Source: a virus | Virus record (IMG/VR): IMGVR_UViG_3300033150_000701 | Coordinates: 1-64,000 of that record | Reading direction: 5' to 3' (one strand) | DNA length: 64,000 nucleotides | In this document: in pieces, positions 61,775 to 64,000 of the stretch | Layout of the letters: each line of letters begins with the position of its first letter | Numbering within the stretch: the stretch's first letter is position 1 | Position numbers and translations under genes: made by a program | Notes under the pieces: generated by a model | What the model was told of the DNA's origin: nothing | Databases searched by the model: none | What the model saw: only the letters and a program-made list of their open reading frames with translations

Positions 61775-62434
61775 TTAACCATCATGGAATAGGAACTGAA
61801 ACGTGTTAGTGTCGAATGTAGTAACAAACGGTATAGGCTTGCCCATAACCCAGTTACGAATGTAACTAGCTACTACTGAAGCTAAAGTAAGCACATTAAA
61901 TATGATACTCTGAGCAGTACACGGTAATTGTTCACCATCACCCTCTAGAGACTCTAGATATTCATAGTTAGGGTGTTTGAGATCAGTAAGAGCATACACA
62001 GCACCTACTAATCCACCCATCCTAGTATCAATGTATAGTTTAGGGTAGATATGTTCACTAGCAATTCTAAGTAGACTTGAATAGATATCTCTTCTAGTCT
62101 CCTTAGAATCAACAGCAGACACTACTATCGGAGTAGAGATCAACTGTGAAGTATACTCTACTGGTTTAGCTCTGATCTTAACACCATCACAGAATTGAGA
62201 TATCATTCTAGAGAGAGCTTCTACCTTGTACTCTCCTACCTCACTAGCAGGGTAGAACTGGTTAGGAATATTGTGTGGCTCTATACGATCAGGATCGTAC
62301 AGCACTAGCCTGTTAACACCCATCTTACCAAGTGTTAAAGCAGTAAACGATCCCACAGATCCAGTACCTATAACAGTAACAGAGGTCTTGTAGATGTTAG
62401 GATCAAATATGTCTAGTTGTCTAAGAAAGTCCAT
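61775..62434 (-). CDS. ThiF/E1-like adenylating enzyme
   Basis: 219 residues, about the size of minimal E1-like (ThiF/PRTRC-ThiF) proteins. GTGSVGS (23-29) binds ATP; LYDPDRIEPHNIPNQF holds Asp47 and Asp49 and the loop that usually reads NLNRQ; Lys70 and AVDSKETR (Asp109) complete the adenylation site. LPCTAQS gives Cys172 at the usual thioester position. Known function: activates the C terminus of a ubiquitin-like protein. It overlaps the JAB gene by 1 nt. The Arg finger of the N-loop appears absent. Confidence 0.85.
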   Translation of the reverse strand: MDFLRQLDIFDPNIYKTSVTVIGTGSVGSFTALTLGKMGVNRLVLYDPDRIEPHNIPNQFYPASEVGEYKVEALSRMISQFCDGVKIRAKPVEYTSQLISTPIVVSAVDSKETRRDIYSSLLRIASEHIYPKLYIDTRMGGLVGAVYALTDLKHPNYEYLESLEGDGEQLPCTAQSIIFNVLTLASVVASYIRNWVMGKPIPFVTTFDTNTFQFLFHDG

Positions 62435-63072
62435 TAGTATATACCACCTCTAAGATAGCTCCAATCCCACTCATCATCAAATAATCCATAGTCGTTGTAA
62501 GTGTCTAGTGCATCACCTTTAGACTTGTAGTAGCTAGACTTACGCTTCTTAGACTTCTTACCCTTCTTGTACTTGACCCTAGGAACTAGCTCTTTGATCT
62601 TAGGTAGCTGTTCCTGAACCCACTTAGACACATCTATCTCTGGTAGCAACACTTTAACATCACACTTGACAGTACATTGTACAGGTTTAAAGTACGTAAC
62701 TGAACAGCCATACTCACCCCTCCTATTAGTGATCAAGCTAACAACGTAAGGTAGCTGATCCAAGATACTTAGCCATGTTTCTTTAAAGTCATCATCGATC
62801 ACAGAATCATGCGTACCCATATACGCATGACTATGCCATATACCTCTAATGTACTGATCAACCTCTGGATCAAGACTAGACATCCACTTAACCAGTTCCT
62901 TAGCATCTATATCGACACTGGTACTAGTAACAGTCTGTGGTGGTACATGTACATCTACGATCACATTGCCTCTGATCTCTAAGTATCCACCTACCTCAGT
63001 AGTTAGTTTGTCTGTTAGACTCCATATTTTTTCATAGGTTTCAGGTGTTATGTATATTGTAGGATTGCTCAT
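62434..63072 (-). CDS. JAB/JAMM metallopeptidase (deubiquitinase-like)
   Basis: 212 residues from ATG 63072 after TGAGGTGAG. The zinc site matches the JAMM consensus exactly: Glu26 in TTEVGGYL, then HSHAYMGTHDSVID with His80, His82, Ser90 and Asp93. About 60 residues of C-terminal extension are Lys-rich (KKGKKSKKRKSS) and then acidic/aromatic. Such peptidases cleave ubiquitin-like proteins from targets or process them. It overlaps the E2-like gene by 4 nt and the E1-like gene by 1 nt. Confidence 0.88.
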   Translation of the reverse strand: MSNPTIYITPETYEKIWSLTDKLTTEVGGYLEIRGNVIVDVHVPPQTVTSTSVDIDAKELVKWMSSLDPEVDQYIRGIWHSHAYMGTHDSVIDDDFKETWLSILDQLPYVVSLITNRRGEYGCSVTYFKPVQCTVKCDVKVLLPEIDVSKWVQEQLPKIKELVPRVKYKKGKKSKKRKSSYYKSKGDALDTYNDYGLFDDEWDWSYLRGGIY

Positions 63073-64000
63073 TCTATACTCACCTCACTCAAGTACACAT
63101 TATTCTCTGGTAACTCATCATAGGGTATCACATCATCAGATGTGATCTTGAAAGGTAAATGACCATCTAACTCTTCAATTAACTCGTTCCAACAACAAAC
63201 AACCTCTCCTGCATAGTCAGAATCTACATCACTAAATTGAATTATCAACTCTTTAATCCAATCGAATAGCCTAACGTATGGCTCATCACCACTATATGAC
63301 TGTAAGAAATTAATCACCACTCCTATTAGTGAAGCTAGATCCATCTCTTGAAGTAGCCTATGAACGTAATCTGAATATTTACCCCAACATGGATCACCTT
63401 CACGAGATACGTGAGGGTGATCGTTAAGCATCGATACTTGCTCTAAGTATATTTTGATATCCATATAACTACCGATCTTAACTGTGTATTCAGGTAAGGG
63501 TATACCAGCTAGTTTAAGACCTTTAAGCTTAACCAGTATAAAGCTACTACCAATCTGTAGATCACTAATCTTGTTGATCTTCTTTAACGAGTCTAGTATG
63601 TATCTAAGATCAACGTTGAATCGAACAATATCATCTAAACCACTCATCTCATCATATAGATCACCTAGAGTTGACTCCAGATCTTCAAGTTGATCACGTA
63701 AGCGATCAATCTGTGATTCAACCCTGTCGATCTCCCTCTCTAAATCAATTCTTACATCTTCTAGATTAGACACTATAGATCTATAGAAGTCCTGTAACCG
63801 TATTATGGTAGATGCATCAGGATCGTCAATCCTGTTAAAGTTAGGAAACAACTTAGTCAGTACATAATCAAAAAACACGTTAAGCCCTTGATCAGAGTGT
63901 AACATGTCATGTTGAAGCCATAGTCTATTGCTACCTTTCTCTCTAATAGCTATACACGTACTAATAGTATCATAAAGTGTTTGAACCCACACAGAATCAT
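63069..64000 (-). CDS. E2-like (ubiquitin-conjugating-fold) protein, N terminus beyond right edge
   Basis: The visible 309 or so residues are 3'-complete and the frame stays open to the window edge. The protein matches the left-hand paralogue (GSNRLWLQHD), which begins about 110 residues earlier. A coiled coil (residues 78-115 from GTG 63992) precedes FILVKLKGLKLAGIPLPEYTV and strands. Then HPHVSREGDPCWG has the same spacing as E2 HPN-x7-C (HPNINSNGSIC): His at 1, Gly at 8, Cys at 11. A helix follows (SLIGVVINFLQSYSG). The HPN Asn is His here. A partial palindrome lies at 63610. E2 assignment rests on motif spacing and on the adjoining JAB and E1 genes. Confidence 0.7.
   Translation of the reverse strand, partial: DSVWVQTLYDTISTCIAIREKGSNRLWLQHDMLHSDQGLNVFFDYVLTKLFPNFNRIDDPDASTIIRLQDFYRSIVSNLEDVRIDLEREIDRVESQIDRLRDQLEDLESTLGDLYDEMSGLDDIVRFNVDLRYILDSLKKINKISDLQIGSSFILVKLKGLKLAGIPLPEYTVKIGSYMDIKIYLEQVSMLNDHPHVSREGDPCWGKYSDYVHRLLQEMDLASLIGVVINFLQSYSGDEPYVRLFDWIKELIIQFSDVDSDYAGEVVCCWNELIEELDGHLPFKITSDDVIPYDELPENNVYLSEVSIE
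63610..63619. repeat. Palindrome inner core TCAACGTTGA inside the E2-like gene
   Basis: 10-bp core with AT on one side only, read as Phe-Asn-Val-Asp. Possibly a decayed copy. Confidence 0.6.

Follow-up and report, generated by a model that had tools for sequence, protein, structure and literature searches.

Known prokaryotic ubiquitin-like systems

Ubiquitin-like protein (Ubl) conjugation is known in prokaryotes mainly as a metabolic tool of cells or as an anti-phage tool, in which bacteria turn the conjugation against phages. SAMPylation is not known to need an E2, and archaeal SAMPs, as well as Urm1, are dual-use proteins. In the Bil system, BilA carries a pair of Ubl domains, the active site of BilB is CEHH, and BilD is formed by an inactive and an active adenylation domain plus a Cys domain (PMC11354881). 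The type 6d E2s described by Iyer in 2006 are without the classical conserved His and have a His after the Cys instead (PMC1779556). Borg elements multiply JAMM deSAMPylases, which were proposed to act in counter-defence (PMC12660748). A phage-borne Ubl-E2-JAB-E1 set was not found described in the open-access papers searched. The virus locus presented here probably encodes such a Ubl conjugation and deconjugation pathway, as judged from its sequences and from structural models.

Gene row and genome of the virus

The window, which is the whole stretch of 64,000 nucleotides analysed, corresponds to bases 1-64000 of the 68,984-bp virus record IMGVR_UViG_3300033150_000701. The terminal 48 bp of the record are identical at the left and right ends and a short E2-like frame crosses the join in frame, so the genome is circular or terminally redundant. 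By this overlap, the Ubl gene at 1722-1928 belongs to the minus-strand row of the E2, JAB and E1 genes and lies upstream of the E2 array; an earlier note on the window had placed the Ubl elsewhere, and it heads the same row. In transcription order the row is formed by the Ubl, a truncated E2-like copy g, a small ORF (172-423), short copy f, long copy e, short copy d, long copy c, short copy b, long copy a, JAB, E1, a 55-aa ORF and PCNA. The PCNA-like sliding clamp (60822..61571, minus strand; Pfam PCNA_N 7e-7), second gene downstream of E1, counts here as a neighbour and not as an established component.

The three overlapping E1, JAB and E2-like frames of the earlier note are present, and the third is part of a longer gene that extends to position 64337 of the record, right of the window, with further E2-like genes beyond; that the E2 gene at 63069 is one of seven had been missed. 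The E1 adenylation site with Cys172, the exact match to the JAMM consensus, the E2-like HPHV...PC motif and the 68-residue beta-grasp protein, all pointed out from the letters alone, hold up in the comparisons given below.

The virus encodes an HK97-type capsid protein (phrog_544, 1.7e-20), Terminase_6C and a Rad51-type recombinase, and in the neighbourhood are found PCNA, Alba (a match of 2e-4, under the cut-off), RadA, PolB and ligase. With such a capsid, a terminase and archaeal-type replication genes, the genome has the features of an archaeal tailed virus, and its PolB, which is nearest to those of haloarchaeal tailed viruses, fits an archaeal host. Going by gene content, this is probably a tailed virus of archaea. 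The capsid protein had no relative among phage records and so gives no hint of the host.

Among the other genes of the virus are one for an anaerobic ribonucleotide reductase and a number of sugar and glycosyltransferase genes (39058-40950, 32791-37689). The perfect palindrome TTCAACGTTGAA occurs at 35 sites in 69 kb (window positions 138, 439, 1668, 3509 and 5137 through to 60810 and 61281), with a chance expectation well below 1, and often stands right before start codons. It does not occur between 61281 and the right end of the record, where the E1, JAB and E2 array lies, and may serve as an operator or a partition site for the whole genome.

E1-like enzyme, JAB isopeptidase and Ubl

The E1-like adenylating enzyme (61775..62434, minus strand; 219 aa) has a single Rossmann domain with Cys172 and matches Pfam ThiF at 2.2e-21, with 76.6 bits against a cut-off of 28.1. 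The E1 profile matches UBA5, MccB, Uba1 and ThiF at 1e-11 to 1e-10. Across about 50 aligned relatives, the GxGxxG motif, D49, K70, D109 and Cys172 vary little or not at all, Cys172 being kept in 50 of the 51 aligned sequences and replaced by a gap in the remaining one. By the GxGxxG motif and the catalytic Asp, Lys and Cys residues the protein is a member of the E1-like (ThiF/MoeB/UBA) enzymes; it is without a separate Cys domain. Throughout the viral E1 family, Asn, Val, Ser or Thr stands in place of the Arg that MoeB and ThiF have in their NLxRQ motif.

The JAB/JAMM metallo-isopeptidase (62434..63072, minus strand; 212 aa) has HSHAYMGTHDSVID, a zinc site HSHx7SxxD with exact JAMM spacing, and upstream of it Glu26. 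The protein alone has no match in Pfam; a profile of five sequences matches Rpn11 at 2.5e-7 and an archaeal Rpn11 homologue at 3e-7. The catalytic residues are nearly invariant among relatives, and the Glu...HxHx7SxxD site, together with homology to Rpn11/AMSH, assigns the protein to the JAB/JAMM isopeptidases.

The Ubl (1722..1928, minus strand; 68 aa) is a single beta-grasp protein of SAMP2/ThiS-like type, which ends in ...PDVKLG. As a single sequence it matches Pfam SAMP2 at 6e-5, under the cut-off, and a profile of four relatives matches SAMP2 in the PDB at 2e-6. The terminal Gly column is invariant in the alignment. Tails are Gly-Gly or Gly-Asn in nearly all of the 25 relatives, Ala-Gly in one relative and Leu-Gly in the window, where the C-terminal Gly is already exposed. 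A beta-grasp with a C-terminal Gly that is terminal or exposed by a protease characterizes a conjugatable Ubl, and the protein of the window has these features. Small ORFs of 83-89 aa lie near the Ubl gene (172-423, 3570-3836 and 3848-4117); the first and the last of these are clearly related (phmmer about 1e-11), and 3570-3836 is possibly related to them.

The Ubl and the E1 score with the ThiS and ThiF families too, which, with the dual use of archaeal SAMPs and Urm1, would agree with a sulfur carrier. A ThiS/MoaD-like Ubl would then be thiocarboxylated and donate its sulfur to a nucleoside or cofactor, and JAB would remove the product, like Mec+ in CysO-type cysteine synthesis. This reading is quite unlikely, as it leaves unexplained the E2-like protein with a His-Pro/Cys site in complete cassettes and the seven E2-like domains of the virus; moreover, no rhodanese or ATP_bind_3 sulfurtransferase family was found in the virus genome, although the host could supply one.

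The array of E2-like proteins

Seven E2-like domains are recognized by profile in the array: three long copies with the His-Pro/Cys site, three short ones without a Cys there and one truncated copy. Long copy a (record 63069-64337, minus strand, with 63069..64000 inside the window; 422 aa) has HPHVSREGDPCWG, with His307 and Cys317, and is formed by an N-terminal domain, a coiled coil and the E2 domain, so that the frame 63069-64000 is its C-terminal part, about 310 of the 422 aa. The other long copies are c (record 65092-66408; HPHLDLEGHPCWG) and e (record 67149-68378; HPHLNVDNKPCWG), and HPHx7CWG is kept in all three. Among the short copies, b (record 64398-65105) reads HPSVPRTG, without Cys, and d (record 66401-67138) reads HPHVSFACIPN, with Asn at the Cys site and a Cys three residues before, which the automatic alignment had shifted into the column. 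Short copy f (record 68375-68984 joined to 1..125, its N-terminal end, minus strand; 228 aa) reads HPLVPRTG, also without Cys. Copy g is of the long type (655..1668, minus strand) and reads HPHVDQESPR, with Arg at the Cys position, after which the frame is lost; an apparent C-terminal remnant of it, read by eye, lies in another frame at 509..640 (minus strand). Short copies are closer to each other (37-47%) than the long ones (26-35%), as expected if a pair of short and long genes duplicated as a unit.

The profile of the E2 domain, built from 22 sequences, matched 95 PDB sequences at E<=1; among the matches listed, 60 of 60 are E2s, with a best E of 0.0046, and HPN and Cys are in register in the alignments printed. 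The AlphaFold model, confident only in part (mean pLDDT 69.9), starts with a long helix, followed by four strands, the loop that bears the His-Pro/Cys site and, beyond the Cys, further helices, in the order of E2s. Foldseek with this model gave E2s or E2 complexes in 50 of the 50 matches listed, with a best E of 0.009. Giant-virus E2s are within the top four viral matches. A trimmed model (A7) was poorer than the longer one and was set aside. Single E-values from the profile and from Foldseek are weak and the model is only in part confident, which counts against the assignment; the argument is carried by the exclusive matches to E2s and by the register of the motif. The E2 (UBC) fold is assigned on these terms, with weak E-values and only E2s among the matches listed, and the E2/RWD comparison that the earlier note had proposed as a check did not give an unrelated fold. 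The HPN-type His with a catalytic Cys is found in the three long copies; the short ones lack the Cys.

It is very improbable that these proteins are not E2s, with the HP..C stretch as a zinc or structural site of coiled-coil proteins that have another role. When the 22 members were scanned singly against Pfam, UQ_con matched just one of them (0.0043), and some relatives have Cys-rich tails, both of which would suit that explanation. Against it, sequence-profile and fold comparisons give only E2s among the matches listed, the order of helix, four strands, Cys and helices is that of E2s, and the motif is strictly linked to the cassette: among 1058 ORFs that do not belong to the first cassette set, HP[HN]x4-8C[WFLY]G occurs in 8, all of them cassette E2s of genome contigs. 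Since the motif is conserved and tied to the cassette, its chance occurrence is excluded.

Cys-rich and possibly zinc-binding C-terminal tails are present in E2-like proteins of one virus group (L002:7867-9081, L003:5598-6590, L009 and L011-L013) and absent from the copies of the window. It is conceivable that this tail is a fused E3-like part. No E3, RING E3s included, was recognized in the window virus.

Relatives in viruses and cells

The E1 profile found 54 viral loci. With duplicates removed, all four genes are present in 22 further viral contigs, which do not include the window, and 17 of these 22 have the order Ubl-E2-JAB-E1. The full-length E2 protein as query found no relatives among viral contigs, but the E1 query and the profiles did find them. 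In L036 and its kin, JAB and E1 are preceded by a large E2-like gene and a small ORF bearing GG. Among cultured phages, Bacteroides phage DAC15, which infects Bacteroides thetaiotaomicron VPI-5484, has an E2-like protein with HSHV..PCLG, JAB and E1 in adjacent genes, and the E2-like and E1 genes of Xanthomonas phage PhiXhv-12 adjoin a topoisomerase. Flanking genes in other viruses encode helicase, DnaB, primase, SSB, Sak4, nuclease or terminase.

The set, mostly complete, is also found in cellular contigs of Aenigmatarchaeota, Methylomirabilota, Chloroflexi, a deltaproteobacterium and Uhrbacteria; in three of them (L065, L067 and L068) the profile search gave no JAB. As these contigs come from metagenome bins, short ones are possibly misbinned viral or plasmid sequences; the Uhrbacteria contig has 569 kb, and the flanking genes of several, read from the sequence, look chromosomal. 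In 145 genomes from the phylum of one archaeal relative, the cassette was found only in the two already known. Cellular and viral sequences are interleaved in the E1 tree, in which the position of the window is not firmly placed. Cys-bearing and Cys-less E2 domains occur together in L072, L074 and L064, in parallel to the long and short copies of the virus. An AAA+ ATPase gene lies directly before the E2 gene or genes in one Uhrbacteria and one Aenigmatarchaeota genome (L072:2484-4274, L074:1931-3748), and might encode an unfoldase that works together with the tag.

The E1, JAB and E2 genes of the relatives are under purifying selection, with dN/dS of about 0.07-0.25 in the pairs of related contigs where it was measurable. 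This selection bears on a role in counter-defence, in which the cassette would act on a host Ubl system (SAMP or Bil-like tags) with a decoy Ubl and E2 and a tag-removing JAB, with no free-standing pathway. The bacterial use of Ubl conjugation against phages and the multiplied deSAMPylases of Borgs lend it some ground, yet JAB alone would suffice for an antagonist, whereas the catalytic residues of E1 and of the long E2s are kept and selection acts on E1, JAB and E2 alike in the relatives. A use in counter-defence only is considered unlikely.

The proposed pathway

In the virus-encoded pathway that is preferred here, the C-terminal Gly of the Ubl would be exposed from the start in the window virus, and in most relatives JAB would have to trim 0-2 residues. 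E1 would adenylate the Ubl and take it over on Cys172. A long E2 would then accept it on its own Cys, which in copy a is Cys317, and a short E2 that lacks the Cys might assist as a non-catalytic partner, like UEV/Mms2. The final acceptors of the Ubl would be lysines on proteins of the virus or of its host, from which JAB would take it off again. That there are several long E2s, diverged from each other, probably reflects different targets or a function in control. Against the pathway count that no E3 was recognized and that E1 is without both a separate Cys domain and the NLxRQ Arg of MoeB and ThiF.

The neighbourhood of replication and recombination genes suggests an early-to-middle use in infection and supports a use of the cassette during replication, though it names no target. 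The earlier note had proposed a complete pathway with PCNA as a plausible target. The set of genes is borne out by profiles, by fold comparison and by the gene order in the 22 contigs; PCNA as a target is a guess from the gene neighbourhood, and membership in PRTRC is not borne out.

The same kit in other prokaryotic viruses and in a few cells suggests that non-eukaryotic viruses may run a tagging pathway of their own. If this is true, prokaryotic viruses themselves use protein tagging, with the set conserved across at least 23 viral contigs and parts of it present in cultured phages; the relatives in such phages as DAC15 make the idea testable. E2s with eukaryote-like His-Pro-x and Cys, beside Cys-less copies, bear on the origin of the eukaryotic E2/UEV pairs. 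More tentatively, the cassettes may form a widespread and so far undescribed prokaryotic Ubl lineage with classical His-Pro-x/Cys E2s, which would be common to tailed viruses, DPANN archaea and several bacterial phyla and combine catalytic E2s with Cys-less partners, the array of the window virus tagging several targets.

Comparison with known systems

The bacterial anti-phage Bil system (BilABCD) resembles the virus cassette in its four genes for Ubl, E2, JAB and E1. The virus-borne cassette differs in having one Ubl domain, a His-Pro before the Cys and one adenylation domain of 219 aa; with its 68-aa Ubl and this E1, in place of a two-domain Ubl and a bipartite E1 with a Cys domain, it is not a Bil system.

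PRTRC, to which the earlier note had drawn a parallel, is similar in that ThiF, JAB, E2-like, Ubl and ParB proteins occur within one genome. A ParB-like gene is present at 52943-53800 (ParB_N 1.8e-12), as had been claimed, but about 8 kb from the cassette, and belongs to general ParB families. Scores are far under every curated NCBIfam cut-off (40 against 145 bits for ThiF, 36 against 279 for ParB), and the curated PRTRC models did not match the JAB, E2 or Ubl of the window, so the parallel does not extend to membership.

The bacterial operons of Iyer type 6d have the same kinds of enzymes (Ubl, JAB, E1 and E2-like), whereas the virus E2 has the classical His-Pro-x before the Cys. The ubiquitin cascade of Caldiarchaeum subterraneum shares an archaeal E1, an E2 of classical type and an Rpn11-type JAB; the system of the window is viral, with a SAMP2-like Ubl and no RING E3 recognized. 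The haloarchaeal SAMP/UbaA/JAMM system is alike in its SAMP2-like Ubl, single-domain E1 and JAMM protease, and the window virus differs from it by seven E2-like domains. Outside PRTRC by the curated models and without the hallmarks of Bil, the cassette would, from its gene content, work like the prokaryotic Ubl conjugation operons.
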